Of a stretch of DNA of 64,000 nucleotides, positions 7,548 to 62,649 are shown piece after piece; within the stretch, counting starts at the first letter, position 1, and each line of letters opens with the position of its first letter. A program made the position numbers and the translations under genes. The notes beneath the pieces were generated by a model. The model had not been told where the DNA came from. It saw only the letters and a list, made by a program, of their open reading frames with translations, and searched no databases. This stretch comes from Antedon mediterranea. Lineage: Eukaryota; Echinodermata; Crinoidea; Comatulida; Antedonidae. The DNA lies in contig NC_092671.1 in NCBI RefSeq assembly GCF_964355755.1, positions 9,063,001 to 9,127,000 on the forward strand, read 5' to 3'.

Positions 7548-8007
7548 GGTCACAGTGCATTTCGGCCGCCAAACATTTCGGCCGCCGGTTATGGAACGAC
7601 CAAATTCATGAAACTCCAAAAAGGACAAAATATGGCATGATCATTTCGGCCGCCAGGTATGGCGCGCCAAATTGAAATAGCCAGAAATAACTGTACAGAA
7701 TTACAGTGAAAAAAAATAACTTTATCAAGTCTATGGAACGCCACAGAGAATTATGGTCATTTAAACTAGAGATCAGTTGTGCAATGGGCTAAAAACTTCA
7801 GCATCAACTCCTTCTTATTAAAAAAATATCATTAATATTCACTGTAGTGATGGCAATGTGCACGCTATAAATATCGCTTGCTGTTTCTGGAATTGAAGCC
7901 CGCCGATACACTATTTAGTAAAATATTAACATTTTAACACACATGGCGTGTCATACATATTCAAGAATAATTACAATTCTGGCGGCCGAAATTAACAATA
8001 CATATTT

Positions 8008-9943
8008 ATATATATGAAGAAACACAAATTATACAAAAAGTACAGACAGACAAACCAGTACAAGGACTACCTTGAGTACAAGAAACAGAGGAATGTCGCA
8101 AGTGCAAACGTGAGAAAGGCACGTATAGAACATGAGCAAAAGTTAATGAAGAACTTTAAGAAAAATCCTAAGCCAGTATACAAGTACATTAGGGAACAAC
8201 AAAAAGTAAAAGAAGGTATAACTAATCTTGTAAAAGAAGATGGAAGTTTGACCGAAAATGACCAGGAAGCAGTTGAAATGTTGAGCAAATTTTTTCAATC
8301 TGTATATACCCATGAACCAGATGGTGACCTACCCCAGTTTGATAGCAGGAACAGCGACAACATTCTTGAAAATATTGTATTTTCGGTAGAAGATGTTCAG
8401 AAAAAATTAAATCAACAGCAACCAAACAAAGCTCCTGGTCCAGATGGTGTCCATCCTATGGTTCTGAACCAATGTGCCAGTTCTCTAGCTCATCCACTTA
8501 CTATCATTTTCAAGCTCTCACTTGAGACAGGTAAATTACCAAAAGATTGGAAGACTGCAAATGTCACACCAATTTTCAAGAAAGGATCCAAGAAGAAAGC
8601 TGAAAATTATCGGCCCATCAGCCTAACATCAATACCATGTAAAGTTTTTGAATCAATCATCAAAGACAATGTGCTTGGCTTTGTTAAAGGAAGTAGAATG
8701 CTGTCTAGGTGTCAACATGGATTCCTAAGTGGTAGGTCTTGTCTAACAAATTTGCTACAAACATTCGAAACAGTCACTGAAGCTCTAGATAGTGGTGAAG
8801 ATGTGGATATCGTATACCTTGATTATATGAAGGCGTTCGATAGTGTTCCACATCGAAGACTAATTCACAAGCTGATAGGCTATGGAATATCTGGTAAGAC
8901 TATAAATTGGATAGCTGAGTTTCTGGCAGGAAGAACACAGAAAGTAATTGTAAGAAATACAACATCCAAGCCGGTAGATGTAGTGAGTGGAGTCCCACAA
9001 GGATCAGTCCTTGGCCCAATCCTATTCATCCTCTTCATAAACGATCTTCCAGATAAAATTATCAGCGCAGACTTTAACATGTTTGCAGATGATGCAAAGA
9101 TTATAAAGACCATCAAAGAAAAATCGGATTCAAGAAAACTTCAAATTGATCTTGATAGGGCTCAGGAATGGTCAGAGGACTGGCTGCTAAAATTCAATAC
9201 CAAGAAATGCGAAGTGCTCCATGTTGGTAGAAAGACAGAGAAATCAGAATATTGTCTAAATGGAGAAACGTTATTGGCAGTAAACGAAGAAAAAGACCTT
9301 GGTGTTATCTTCACTAGCGACTGCAAGCCAAGCCGACAGTGTGCTGCAGCAGCAGCTAGAGCGACGAATAGTATGAGAACTGTCAAAAGAACATTCAAAA
9401 ATATTGACAAAGAAAGTTTTCAGGTCATGTACAAGGCATACATCCGTCCACATATGGAATACTGTATACAGTCCTGGTCTCCTTACTATAACAAAGACAA
9501 AGAAATCTTGGAGAAGGTGCAGAGAAGAGCTACAAAGATGGTCAATAAGTGATCTACCATATGAAAAAAGGTTAGAATATCTTGATCTTCAACCATTAGA
9601 GACAAGAAGACTACGAGGAGATTTGATTGAAGCTTTCAAAATTTTGAAAGGCTTTGAGGATATTGACCCAAAAGATTTATTTAAATTGTCTCACAACATC
9701 AGAACCAGGGGACACAGCTTAAAACTATATCGTCCAAAACTTAGAGGAAATCTTATGTGCAGGGTCAACTTTTTTACCATCAGAGTCATACATCACTGGA
9801 ATTCTCTGCCTGAATATGTAATACAAGCCTCTTCAGTGAACATCTTTAAGTCTAGACTTGACAACTATTTTCGGCTAGAAATGGAATCTAATAGGCACTA
9901 GCCTAAACTATTTCCATCAAACATTAAGTGTAAGTGTAAGTGT
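8008..9943 (+). mobile_element. 5'-truncated non-LTR retrotransposon (LINE), CR1/jockey-like
   Basis: A reverse-transcriptase-coding segment ends in a short tandem tail (TAAGTG repeats, about 9925-9942) instead of poly-A, as in several CR1-like clades. ATATTT occurs on both sides (8002-8007 and 9944-9949), a likely short target duplication. Comparison with the empty site in the second transposon copy (near 51680) shows that this LINE inserted into the right end of the 7548-10016 element. The 5' part, including any endonuclease region, is missing. Confidence 0.85.
8014..9901 (+). pseudogene. LINE reverse transcriptase, frameshifted
   Basis: The first frame (8014-9552, 512 codons) holds the reverse transcriptase core: NKAPGPDGVHP, a finger region with NYRPISLTS, the palm motif YLDYMKAFDSVPH, GVPQGSVLGPILFILFINDL, and the catalytic FADDAK box. 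It stops at TGA 9550-9552. The usual C-terminal region of this family (RDLIEAFKIL-like heptads and the WNSLPE box) continues in another frame to TAG at 9899-9901. A small indel near 9535-9552 has therefore split one protein, and the copy is dead. The host element lacks its N-terminal domains. Confidence 0.85.
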
Positions 9944-16371: not shown

Positions 16372-26567
<10,196 letters not shown>

Positions 26568-55452: not shown

Positions 55453-58400
55453 TTATAATTTTGGAAAGTATAGGTTCTTTCTTAGTGTATACTGGGGAGC
55501 TGGAACCTGCTTGTAACAGCCGTTAGACTCCCTAGCAATAGCTTTGCTTACTTCACTATTCACTTGTGTCAGGATATCTAGTATGTGATTGGTATGGTGG
55601 TATTTTTTCAAATTTTGTGTCAGCGTTGTAATGTACCACGATCCAAAAGTCTTGCTCCTGTATGACACGTTGCCAGGTGCTGTGGCATATCCGAGCAGGA
55701 AATCGGCATCATCCGGGATATTCTCTGTAGCAGTTGGTGGAGCATCATCTGTTTCCATATTATGTACAAACTGCTCAGCTCGTCTAGTGCCTTGGCAGGC
55801 TTGTAGAAAGAATAACTTTGGTTTGTTTGCAAGTGTCTTGCAATGTCCTGTACGAAATGCGCTGGTCATTTCTATTATTTTACAAGTTTCTCCGTCACTG
55901 CCAAAAACATTTCCAAGGTCACCGTGGGACAAAATACAACACACAAAACAATCATACTTGGAATGATCCATTTTACGAATGTCAATTATTTTATTCATCA
56001 TCTGGGCTGCAGTTAAATTGCGCATCACATCAACATAAAATCCTAGGTATCCGAAAACATGTTTAAGATTATCTGTGAAGGAATTAATTTAATTAAGTGT
56101 TAGTACTACCCTTATATTGAACATTAATATTAAAAAAACAGGAATATTTTAATGTTTATTATAACATATGCCTGAGCGTATCAGGGGCAGATCCAGGGGG
56201 GTGGGGGGCTAAATATTATATCCGTCGGGTTGCAGAAAAATTTTTCCTACATTCTTTAGATCTAATTTAAGGTCACAAACTACATTTAATGTAAAAATAA
56301 ATACTATATGGTCCTATTGAGATAACCTTTTTTCGTCTTTAAATGGTTAAAAATGTGAGAAATAAGGCGATTCTAATAATTTTAGCGGCTCGCTATAAAT
56401 CTCAAAATGCATTGCGCACGGATTTATATTTTTGTTTTGATCGATCAAAGGTCAAAACAAATAGAAGACTCCTAACTTTTCAGCAAAAATACTGGGTTTC
56501 CCCCAAGTTGTATCAACGGAGGCAAAAACAGAAAGATAATTAATACAGAAACTATACAATGTTAGGCTAGACCTATATCTAGCGTAAAATATTCGTACGT
56601 CATCAATGTTTACCAACTAGGCCTACAAAACTCAGCCTAGCTAGGCTAGGCCTAAAGACGACCAACGAGAGGACATTCACTGCGAGCTACTTAGGTAGTG
56701 CATTGTTTCTCTTTTTTTATCAGCATTTACCATAAAACATACATTTAAGACAAGGAATGACCTGGTTTAATGTTTTTAAAGAAATATGTATGCATTATTT
56801 TTACAAAACATAACAATTATAGGGAATGGGTTATTAAATTTTAGGGGTGGCTAAAGCCTGTTTAGCCCCTGCCTAAGTCTGCGCCTGCGTATTCTTGCCA
56901 TTTGAATAGTTAATTATTGTGTGACGTTGGTATTATTCCATGGCAAAGTGAAGTGAACACCATTGCTATATGTGTTGATTTTTTATTCTTTTGTGTGTTT
57001 ATTGCGTCTTTTACTATTTCTGTAAATAGAAATCAATCTATTAATTTATATATATATATGTAGTTTATAATAAAGAATATATAAATTAACTGTTGTTAGC
57101 TATGACATGAATATTACATTTAAAGACTCCCTAAATTGAAAGTAAATACCTTCATCAATCTCTGAACCTCTTCTTTCTTTTAGGATTTTAGTAAACTGCA
57201 TATTGTTTATAATAAGGCATATTCCACGTGTAGCGTGAGTCATATTGTATTTCTCAATCTGCAATCCTGTTATAGTAAAAATAATAAATTAAATTACTCA
57301 AAACTTTATGTGATTTATATATTGGTTAAGTACAACCATTTATCTATAGTTAACAGTCTAGACTTGCCCTGAGGCTCTAATTGGTCTTTTTTTATGTTGG
57401 TAGTATTCCATTGGTGTTATTACAGCTCAAGTATTATACATATGAAATGCCAAATTTGCGAAAATCTTTTTACCAATGTCAAATATATAGAACCTACACT
57501 ATTTACAGGGCACTAAGCAAGGCTCCTACCAAAAAGCTATGTTTCAAATTCTTGAACTGTAGTATAATTCATGTCAAACACATGAAATACACATGAAGAT
57601 GAGCCCATTGAATGAAGCTTTTAGAAACATTGTATAATGTGCTCTATAAGACCAAGACAAGGATGCTGAGCTCTGGAGATCTAAGGGTTTATCTGTGGCT
57701 GCAACACAACCGGTTCCACGCCATTTAATAGCCACTGCGTGCCACAAAGAATATGTACACAGTACAGTACTTTTGGTATTTGTCGCAACTATGAGCCATA
57801 AGATAAAATGAATGTTACGAGTTTGTATCTTGACGGGGCGAGCTCAGTGTTCTGTTGTTCGCCTTGATAAATAAAGCGATGTCTATGTCTATGATAAGAC
57901 TACCATTATTATTATTAGTATTATTAGGGACGAAACACGACGGTTAGGTGAGGATGACGAATATCCTGTGTTCGCTAGAGCGTAAAATCATGTACAGTCA
58001 ACATAGCCGTTTTATTAGTTACGCACCCTTGCACGAAGACGATGACGACCGGCAGGATCTCTCCCCCTCCTCTGTCTCGCGGCGCGGGGCTTTTCTGAAT
58101 TGCTTGGCTCTGGTGATACAGAATAGGCCTTCCTAGCTAGGGGCCTCACATTCAAATGCTGCTTTTAACAAAGCCATTTTAACCCAATAAAAATGTTATT
58201 TCATTCAGGGATGTCACCAGCTTTTTGGAGTGCCGGTCGGCAAATTTCCCGGGGGGGGTGGGTGTAACCCCGGGGTACCCCCCCCCCCGGGTTTGTCGTC
58301 ATTTCAGCGAAACATAAAGAATTATGAAAATAAATAACAACAAATTGCGTCAGGTCTAGGCCTAACCTTGTACCACAGGGGAGTCGCCGTTATTATTCGC

Positions 58401-61400
58401 GAAAACAAAAAACGCTCACGAAATGAATAGCAATAGATCGCGTCAGGCTTAGGCCTAGCCTTGTAGACACTACGACCACTAGGCCTAGCCAAGGCTTAGA
58501 TAGATGCCCCAAAACCCAAAATCCGAATTCCACAAAAACGGGCGCTTCTTTATTTAGGCCTAATCCCTAATCAAATAATGTAGATAAATTATTAGCCTAG
58601 ACCTTACTACTTGTTGCTCGATATAACGGTTCGTGTTCTTTTGCGCGAGAGTTTTTTAGCGTATTCGCGAATTCCGGATTTTTTGTTTCACAACTGTGCG
58701 GCTAGCATGTATGTAGTGCATGGCCGGCAAGAACAGAGACACGTGTTTATGGGTTAACTGAAGTTCAGCAACCTGAAGTTATCCCAGGGACGTGTAATTG
58801 TACCATGCTCGGCGATCATAAACGAACGAACTTGCCCGGTCTCACTGAACCATGCGCATGTTTTTTATTTTTTTTAATAGTTCGTAGAGTACAAAAATGT
58901 AAAACTAGTAACATAATATAATTAAAGCAGGGTGACAAAACATTCAGCAATTAAAAATGATTTTGTTTGGGTCTATGTAGTTGTACATTTTTAATTACTG
59001 CGTACTTGTTTGTATTTTTAATCTGTGCAAAATAAAACGCTTGAATGGTCGCTATGTGAACTTTAAACTTGTACACTGTGCTGTGTAGCACGTTGTTCGC
59101 CATGACTCACAAGCTGTAACAATGAATACCACCAGGGCAGGGTAGGCCTGGTATTGTGTTACAAATAAAGTAACGTACGTAACCACGGAAACATTTGCTG
59201 TAGTCTTTTGTCTTATCTATTATGAGGCTAGCTTGTCTGTTATTAACGATGTGCTAGGTAAAATGTTTTAGTACGAATTTTAGTTAGGCCTAGGCCTAAT
59301 ATAAATATCGCCGTGGTTAGGATTCCGGCACCGGAACTCAACTGCCCACCGTTAGGGAATCCGACACGCTATTGCGCATGCTCATAGCTCTGGGAAGTGA
59401 ATTATAGCTTGCACTTATAGAGTGCCACACACACCACACCACCGAGAGTCGGAGTGTTATAGGGATTTACTGTAGCCTAGATAGTCGTTGCGCGAGCGAG
59501 AGAGCGATGGATGAAACTTGGCCTATGCCATACATGAATTAATAATTAAAATACGACTACGCCACGCGTTAAAATAATTATAATGATATTAATAAGTATC
59601 AGTATCTATCTAAGAATCGTAATGCTGTTTTTAGCGTTGCGACCCTGACTTTCCAAACAGTTTTCACATCCACGCGGGTGGCTGCCGTCAACAAATCAAC
59701 TTGTGATTGCATGTTGTTATGTACAGTATAATGCGTTATGAAAAATCATAAAACTAGTCATGTAATTATATAATTCATAATGATATGAAGTTTATATATG
59801 AATGAAGCAACCACTATTTAATTTAAAAATAAATAGGCCCACTGGTCACGTCTAACTGGTAACCCTAGCCTAGATTAGTGGATACCGTATTAGTAGGCAT
59901 CTAGACTAGTTTGCCGTGTGTGGCGCAGCTATGAAATGATCCATCGCTGTTGTTGATAGGTGGTATAGAGTCGCCGATTACCTCGCTCTGGGCATGCGCA
60001 ATAGCGTGTCGGATTCCCTAACGCTGGGCAGTTGAGTTCCGGTGCCGGAATCCTAACCACGGCGTATAAATATCGTATCGTAATGATTAAATAGTGGTGG
60101 TCGGCAGCCTGTAAATCCTGGTCGGAAATGTTGAGTGCTGGTCGGGGCCGACCAGCGCCGACCAGCGTGGTGACATCCCTGATTTCATTAAACAATTAAA
60201 TTGTTCAAGTTCAAATATTATTTAGAGTTCTGAAAATTCCACCTTTAAGTGTAATTTGAACTGTATATTTAAGGTTAGATACATTATTTCTAGTCGTTCT
60301 CCGTAAACAGGAAGATGGCAACTTTATCGTTCTCAAAAAGTTAAGACAGAATTTCACGCTAAGCTCAGCCTACTTTGTTAAAGCTCATGCATAAATTATT
60401 CATGAGCACCGTCCTATGGCATTCCATTGTGTTTCATGAAGTCCCTATTATTATTGTTATTAATAATACATGGTGCAATTACCTCGAGTGTTCTGAGTAT
60501 CTAAAACTGCATCTCTTTGCACAGCTTGTTTAGTAAGACTTGGTGTTGCTTCTACCGGTTGTGAAATGGATTGAATACTGCTCATTTCTACACAGAAATG
60601 TATGACATTTTGTATAAAACAAATCAATCAATCATCATTATGATTTAATAGTGTAGCATTAATTTGACACTAACATTAGTATGAATTGTCTAAAAATAAG
60701 TAATAGGTAATAATATATTTTTTGTATAAAACATTTACCATTTTTCAGATAGTTAGATAAATCTTGTCGATCGATTTTAGGAGATCCTAATGCTTCACAC
60801 AAGGAATCCATCTGTTGTTCTGGATGTGTTCTTTCTTGCCATTTTAATAGCATTGTATAAGAATCCTCGATGCCATCCATATCAACAGCAGACAGTCCCA
60901 GTTTATAGCCCAACATTCTCCATTCATATCCTAGCGAACTGGCAAGATAACTGATGTAACTCTCTTGCTGAGAGCCTATAACACAAATTCAAAATTAAAA
61001 TGTACTGCCACTCTTAAAGCTCTGTCTAACTATCAAACTGGTTTGACAAAAAAAAGTGTTATGTGCCCAAATATGGTAGTGATATGACATCATCGTATCC
61101 ATATATGGGCACATCACATTTTTTTGTCACATAAAGTTTGATAGTGTAGAAAGAGCTTTACAGTCAGAAAATATATTATAAAGAAAAGTAGATTCTTTAG
61201 TCATAGTCATATACTTCATAGTCAGATTCTTTATACTGTATACAACCACATGTTGATCAAATGACAATGAATGACAATAAAAATAGGTTTTAGATGATTT
61301 TCGTTCTTATTTTTCAGGAACTAGACTCAAATGATTTCCCTGTAAGATCAAAGGCAGTAATATTCTAAAATACTAAAGCAACAGGAACTAGTTAAAGCAC

Positions 61401-62649
61401 CTTGGTTTTTAACTGGCGGTTCAGTCAGTTTTAAGCTGTTGAAAGTTTCTTGAACGTCTTGATATTCTTCCTCTTGTACGACTGGCTCGCTTCTAGAACT
61501 CGATTGTGAATGTTCTTTTACATTTCCACATTCAGAAGAACCTTTGAAATTTGAAAGGAAATTATGATTTAGTAAAGATTAAAATTACGAATGATGACAC
61601 AATCGTGGTAAAGATCAATCATAATTATTAGTCATTGTGCTTAAAACTGTGCTGTATGTAAGAAAATCATTACCAAACACCCTCTATTACAAAGATGTGT
61701 TCGAAATAAGTATAAGGCCTATTCAGCAACATACCTCTATATCTTGTTACTTTTGACACCAATTCGTTACTTCCTATATACACCCCAATTTCTTCAAGAA
61801 AATCTAGATTTGTTGGTGATATTATCATGAGTTTTTCCAATTCAATCATTAGTTTGATTGGCTCGTCAATTTTCTCAATTTTTCTGGCTGCCATATGATC
61901 TCTTAATAGAGGCTTTAATGAAGACAAGTCATTCTTTCCGATATCATATGCAAAATCAACTACCATACGTCTGGGTAAAAATAATATGATTTAAATTATG
62001 GATAAATGTATAATACTACAGTAATAGTGTATAGTTATTAAAATCTACTGAAATAGTAACAATAATGAAAGTTTATAGTAGTTAGAATATTTTCACCATT
62101 CAACTTTTGAGATTATTTTGAAATATTTTTTTTTTGGAAAATCTATCTATTGTACAATTATTTCCTATTATGCAATAGTATACAATAAGGGTGATAACAT
62201 TAATACACTGTCTAGAGATGTGTAGTTTACTAGTTTTTATAAACACAGTACCTGTATGCCGATATACAGTTAGTTTTTTTCCCTCTTTCTGCAAACGGTA
62301 AACACTTTTCAACTTGTACTTTAAGATCAATTCTTTCTATCAGGCTAAGCATTTCTATCATAATTCCTAAGTTGTCTTTTGATAGCCGTCCTCTCTTCTC
62401 AAGTTTATCCAAAAGATCGAGACCTCTACTGGCAGTCTCCAGTTCCCCATGACGAAGGCCGATGTTTGTATCCAGACATAAGTATTTTAGCCTACAAATG
62501 TCACTTTCTGTTAAATTTCGATCAATGTTTAACAACATTTTGCGGTAATCAAAGCGGGAAAATTCTTTTATGGTGCGAGTTTGCTCTTGAGCTCCAAATG
62601 TGGTACTAGTAGGGCTGTTAGGTATTGGTTTAGCATCTGTTTCCGCCAT
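55453..62649 (-). CDS. Caspase-8-like initiator caspase with DED-DED-DD-protease layout (7 coding exons, 617 aa)
   Basis: Cysteine protease expected to start death-receptor-type apoptosis in the cytosol. Minus-strand exons: 62252-62649, 61735-61970, 61401-61541, 60739-60975, 60483-60587, 57150-57266, 55453-56072; all phases agree. DED1 is at about 33-118, with the RxDL motif as ERIDL. A more diverged DED2 is at about 135-210. A death domain is at about 260-337 (GYEWRMLGYKLGLSAVDMDG and LLKWQERTHPEQQMDSL). The protease is at about 376-617, with catalytic His about 461 in ILSHGDLG and Cys about 504 in FLQACQG. METD and IPDDADFLLG around the large/small subunit linker, and VSYRS with GSWYI in the substrate pocket, match caspase-8/10. 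The death domain is absent from vertebrate caspase-8. The intron between exons 5 and 6 carries a hAT-type element. Confidence 0.92.
56240..56835. mobile_element. Family C MITE, copy 2 (diverged ends)
   Basis: In the last caspase intron. The interior matches 11430-12020 over most of its length, for example ACTATATGGTCCTATTG, AAAATGCATTGCGC, GAAGACTCCTAACTTTTCAG and GAGCTACTTAGGTAGTGCAT. The ends are degraded, and I could not confirm TTAA flanks. Confidence 0.75.
57640..57900 (+). mobile_element. Probable retroelement 3' tail
   Basis: In the caspase intron, opposite to the gene. The sequence GGGGCGAGCTCAGTGTTCTG is followed by TTGATAAATAAAGCGATG and a short TGTCTA tandem run, resembling a LINE 3' end with a tandem tail. 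No coding part is left. Confidence 0.4.
58198..58205. repeat. Target-site duplication ATTTCATT (left)
   Basis: Identical to 60182-60189. Confidence 0.88.
58206..60181. mobile_element. Non-autonomous hAT-type transposon in caspase intron
   Basis: Ends are CAGGGATGTCACCAG and its complement CGTGGTGACATCCCTG (one mismatch), flanked by a perfect 8-bp duplication ATTTCATT. CAGGG termini with an 8-bp duplication fit hAT elements. GCCGGTCGGC-like words (left) and GGTCGGGGCCGACCAGCGCC (right) lie just inside. C- and G-runs occur at about 58250-58290. No transposase frame is visible. A second element (59309-60064) lies within it. Confidence 0.85.
59309..60064. mobile_element. Nested element with about 80-bp inverted ends and 9-bp duplication
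   Basis: Begins CGCCGTGGTTAGGATTCC and ends in the exact complement. The two arms stay nearly identical for about 80 bp (differences near CCCACCGTT versus CCCAGCGTT and at the inner edge). TATAAATAT occurs directly on both sides (59300-59308 and 60065-60073). Long inverted ends plus a 9-bp duplication suggest a Mutator-like MITE, which is inference. High arm identity argues for recent insertion. Confidence 0.8.
61016..61160. mobile_element. Family A MITE, copy 6
   Basis: In the caspase intron between the linker and death-domain exons. Left end AAAGCTCTGTCTAACTATCA, centre with TATGACATCATCGTATCC, right end TTGATAGTGTAGAAAGAGCT then TTA. This is one of the better preserved copies. Confidence 0.85.

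Follow-up and report, generated by a model that had tools for sequence, protein, structure and literature searches.

A crinoid caspase-8-type gene predicted to join two DEDs, a death domain and a protease in one chain

The question raised by this stretch of the Antedon mediterranea genome is whether a single gene joins a death domain to the protease of an apical caspase and, if so, how such a caspase might be brought to its site of activation. The window, that is, the whole stretch of 64,000 nucleotides that was analysed, corresponds to C2:9063001-9127000 of the 354-Mb genome. On its minus strand, at 55453-62649, lies a caspase gene whose seven exons had been joined in the original prediction into one in-frame DED-DED-death domain (DD)-caspase. 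Splice joins, reading frame and the order of the Pfam domains all agree with that reading. The exons (Table 1) run in frame for 1854 nt and encode 617 aa with one terminal stop, all of the introns (6/6) are GT-AG, and DED1, DED2 and the DD each fall on a single exon. Chance open reading frames are ruled out by the domain scores and the splice phases. An extra frame at 56910-57019 (EIVKDAINTQ...HGIIPTSHNN, followed by a stop) is without a family match and was excluded from the model. At the level of sequence, the seven-exon gene is confirmed as real and correctly read, and its exons likely form one gene with a predicted single transcript.

Table 1. Exons of the caspase gene and the insertion in its fifth intron (window coordinates)
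Feature	Position	Strand	Details
Exon 1: start codon and DED1, residues 1-133	62252..62649	-	Donor CAG/gtactg, ends in phase 2
Exon 2: DED2	61735..61970	-	Ends in phase 1
Exon 3: acidic/serine-rich linker, 141 nt	61401..61541	-	Symmetric, phase 1-1; paralogue lacks it
Exon 4: death domain, 237 nt	60739..60975	-	Symmetric, phase 1-1; Pfam Death
Exon 5: DD-protease linker, 105 nt	60483..60587	-	Symmetric, phase 1-1
Exon 6: start of p20, P1-Asp-binding Arg in KERRGSEID	57150..57266	-	
Exon 7: remaining p20 (SHGD, QACQG), linker METD↓D, p10 (VSYR), stop	55453..56072	-	
Repetitive TE-like insertion in intron 5	58196..60191		24-nt terminal inverted repeats

In the Pfam search proposed along with the original prediction, DED, Death and Peptidase_C14 all scored above their curated cut-offs. 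The two DEDs together reach 112.5 bits over two stretches (cut-off 35.9), the protease reaches 208 bits, and the death domain (PF00531, residues 265-331) reaches 31.2 bits in context (cut-off 22.6). The best PDB match of the whole protein is human caspase-8, at 200 bits over the DEDs and the protease, and the two proteases are 43.7% identical. The catalytic and linker motifs, which the original prediction had taken to be intact, are indeed kept in the alignment with human caspase-8: SHGD with the catalytic His, QACQG with the catalytic Cys, VSYR, the substrate-pocket Arg residues and METD. The last of these forms a putative cleavage site, METD↓D, aligned at the human VETD processing site, while VLD↓T in exon 5 is a possible candidate for cleavage of the prodomain. 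A tree built from the genome's caspases and human caspase-8 is too small to settle orthology, so the relationship is argued here by residue comparison and identity only. DED2 reads SLKPLL against the human SFKFLL, placing a Pro at the position that we take to be human F122, and the contacts of DED2 may be weakened as a result. With these features in hand, we lean towards reading the gene as a caspase-8-type apical caspase with an additional death domain in its prodomain.

Judged by its sequence the death domain is short and divergent, but the exon that encodes it gives 34.2 bits (E 2.8e-8) against Pfam Death when searched alone. By the density of death-domain matches in the genome, an estimate that rests on at least 149 of them, chance would place about 0.0009 such matches on the gene's strand between exons 2 and 6. 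The nearest PDB sequence is the FADD death domain, at a weak match. No close relative of the domain was found in its own genome, where the best other match has E 0.3, and a scan of viral contigs found no relative. A single-sequence AlphaFold model of the domain has five helices at a pLDDT of 52, and a Foldseek search with it gave no significant match.

How the death domain sits in the gene is best seen by comparison with a second DED-DED-caspase, about 220 kb away at C2:8900429-8902256 (minus strand), that has no death domain. Intron phases agree in both genes: the DEDs are separated by a phase-2 intron, and phase 1 is found both at the junction of DED2 with the protease and within the protease. 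To this common plan the window gene adds three phase-1/1 exons (141, 237 and 105 nt) at the junction of DED2 and protease. Three symmetric, frame-neutral exons with the death domain in the middle read as an exon insertion, or else as the loss of a block from the paralogue. Skipping exons 3-5 leaves an open frame that predicts a 456-aa DED-DED-caspase; the death-domain exons can thus be skipped in frame, and forms with and without the death domain may both be made. Carried further, this would make the gene a classical caspase-8 in practice, its message mostly DED-DED-caspase and its death-domain exons rarely included or a decaying cassette. The three additional exons, all symmetric and multiples of 3, fit such a view, as do the open skip form and the divergence of the death domain. 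That said, the death-domain exon retains an open frame, both splice sites and a Pfam score above cut-off, all features that decay would tend to remove, and we regard this outcome as distinctly unlikely. In the paralogue, RKSK replaces VSYR and the active-site motif reads ETCRG, residues from which an altered specificity or activity may be suspected. With the paralogue diverged in both pocket and active-site motif, the gene with the death domain resembles caspase-8 more closely than the paralogue does.

A different objection concerns intron 5, the longest of the gene at 3216 nt. Here the exons might be divided between two adjacent genes, exons 1-5 encoding an adaptor of DED-DED-DD type and exons 6-7 belonging to a caspase of their own, for which a further 5' exon would be needed but was not found. 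The length of the intron and the transposon-like insertion within it are consistent with such a division, and read-through of exon 5 stops after 7 residues. The genome's FADD orthologue, moreover, is itself DED-DED-DD. Exons 6-7 also occur elsewhere in the genome as two copies, at C7:15956769-15959293 and C2:37524188-37525426 (both plus strand), and no DED, DD or CARD was found near either one, whether in the fetched loci or among the matches listed genome-wide. Exon 6, however, requires an upstream coding exon that ends in phase 1, which is what exon 5 provides, and the compact paralogue joins DED2 directly to its caspase exon across the same phase-1 junction. The insertion also accounts for most of the length of the intron. 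At least 39 other places in the genome partly match a 206-nt piece of it; some 2.0 kb of the intron is accordingly a multi-copy insertion, and before it arrived the intron probably measured about 1.2 kb. Weighing these points, we consider two separate genes very unlikely, and the argument continues with the single gene.

Within the insertion, two 80-nt arms (59309-59388 and 59985-60064) are 96% complementary and may be a nested insertion. Long plus-strand frames at 7996-9901 and 17918-19021 carry reverse-transcriptase motifs (FADD/YADD type) and were judged by eye to be LINE-like.

The copies of the protease exons are recent. Exon 7 is 88% identical to that of the window gene in the C7 copy and 85% identical in the C2 copy at 37.524 Mb, and both copies keep the position of the exon 6 splice acceptor. 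Between the window protease exon and the two copies, dN/dS is 0.21-0.30, so the protease is under purifying selection. At C5:22033618-22136918 (minus strand), at least eight related caspases, with protease exon identities of 46-56%, form a tandem cluster that encloses two death-domain exons (22062190-22062928).

What the death domain might do depends on the partners present in the same genome. A FADD orthologue was found on the minus strand of C6:9652500-9657500, at about 3520-2130 within that piece, with human FADD as its best PDB match (97.6 bits). Its two DEDs lie on one exon, followed by a death-domain exon; vertebrate FADD has one DED. On C9, TNFR_c6 (cysteine-repeat) exons, taken here as separate exons, are found a few kb from death-domain exons, an arrangement that death receptors would be expected to show. 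Over C9:20181647-20359640 (plus strand), exons for TNFR repeats and death domains form a tandem array, which suggests an expanded family of death receptors. As the genome has a FADD orthologue as well as exons of TNFR type close to death-domain exons, the classical route exists in this animal too, so a caspase with its own death domain would supplement the FADD route, not replace it. Death-domain receptors may recruit the window caspase directly, with no need of FADD, though its death domain could equally dock on FADD.

By analogy with caspase-8 and bivalve caspase-8B, the death domain would recruit the zymogen to a clustered protein that has a death domain of its own, be it a receptor of TNFR type or the FADD orthologue. 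The tandem DEDs would then recruit more procaspase and so extend the assembly, and neighbouring protease domains would dimerise through proximity. They would then cut themselves at METD↓D, which separates p20 from p10, and probably also at VLD↓T after the death domain, and the activated caspase would go on to cleave executioner caspases. The single transcript, the binding of the death domain, the cleavage sites and the order of events are all inferred. The partner of the domain may instead lie outside the death receptors, for instance among PIDD/NLR-like or nuclear death-domain proteins, a view that draws on the at least 149 death-domain matches in the genome and on the amphioxus DED-DD caspase, whose death domain serves nuclear localisation and FADD2 binding (PMC3196919). 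We think this unlikely, given that protease and DEDs resemble those of caspase-8 and that a bivalve death domain of the same layout is reported to bind Fas and FADD (PMC7836458).

The original prediction held the layout to be undescribed, a claim that does not survive the literature. In Vogeler et al. 2021, oyster Cg8B and mussel Mc8B are presented as caspase-8B proteins of bivalves in which two DEDs are followed by a death domain, with one exon per domain in the oyster gene (PMC7836458). According to Sakamaki et al. 2014, as cited there, the Mc8B death domain binds the human Fas and FADD death domains. In amphioxus, the bbtCaspase-1/2 of Xu et al. 2011 is a DED-DD-caspase whose prodomain binds the FADD2 death domain, and its own death domain is needed for nuclear localisation (PMC3196919). 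With the layout published for bivalves, the window gene extends a known architecture, now in an echinoderm. Two tektins of the genome agree with such a host: they match chains of PDB entry 8snb (sea urchin sperm axoneme) at 290 and 239 bits, with the next matches at no more than 156 and 147, and taken alone would make an echinoderm probable and a hemichordate the less likely alternative, while a search for mitochondrial COX1 found no match. An incomplete literature search found no report of a DED-DED-DD-caspase in an echinoderm, and no claim to a first report is made.

The distribution of this layout does raise the prospect of an old origin: lophotrochozoans and echinoderms would have inherited the DED-DED-DD-caspase from a bilaterian ancestor, vertebrates would have lost it, and that ancestor would already have had, next to the FADD route, a caspase able to dock on death-domain receptors by its own death domain. 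We put this forward tentatively, as somewhat doubtful. Common descent with bivalve caspase-8B would mean that death-receptor apoptosis formerly ran along two routes, one with the caspase recruited via FADD and one with a caspase bearing its own death domain, and that vertebrates kept only one of them. A single genome that holds the death-domain form, a paralogue without it and FADD makes the two-route idea directly testable. The value of the locus is therefore evolutionary, as it allows a test of whether a caspase-8 with a death domain predates the protostome/deuterostome split.

Set against known systems, the window protein shares with vertebrate caspase-8/10 the tandem DED, the protease, QACQG, a METD/VETD-type processing site and the VSYR pocket. 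It differs in having a death domain, which the vertebrate proteins lack, and in the shorter loop that precedes its P1-binding Arg. With FADD it has in common a DED joined to a death domain, but FADD is without the protease that it carries. The amphioxus bbtCaspase-1/2 likewise places DED and death domain ahead of the caspase domain, yet its DED is single and its protease is closest to caspase-2/1, whereas the window protein has two DEDs and is caspase-8-like. Closest in layout, as compared by published description, is bivalve caspase-8B (Crassostrea gigas Cg8B, and Mc8B), which shows the same DED-DED-DD-caspase order and the same arrangement of each death-fold domain on one exon. In both settings a caspase without a death domain lies on the same chromosome, caspase-8A on LG7 in oyster and the paralogue on C2 here, although the distance is about 220 kb in the crinoid and several Mb in oyster, and the hosts are an echinoderm in the one case and lophotrochozoans in the other.
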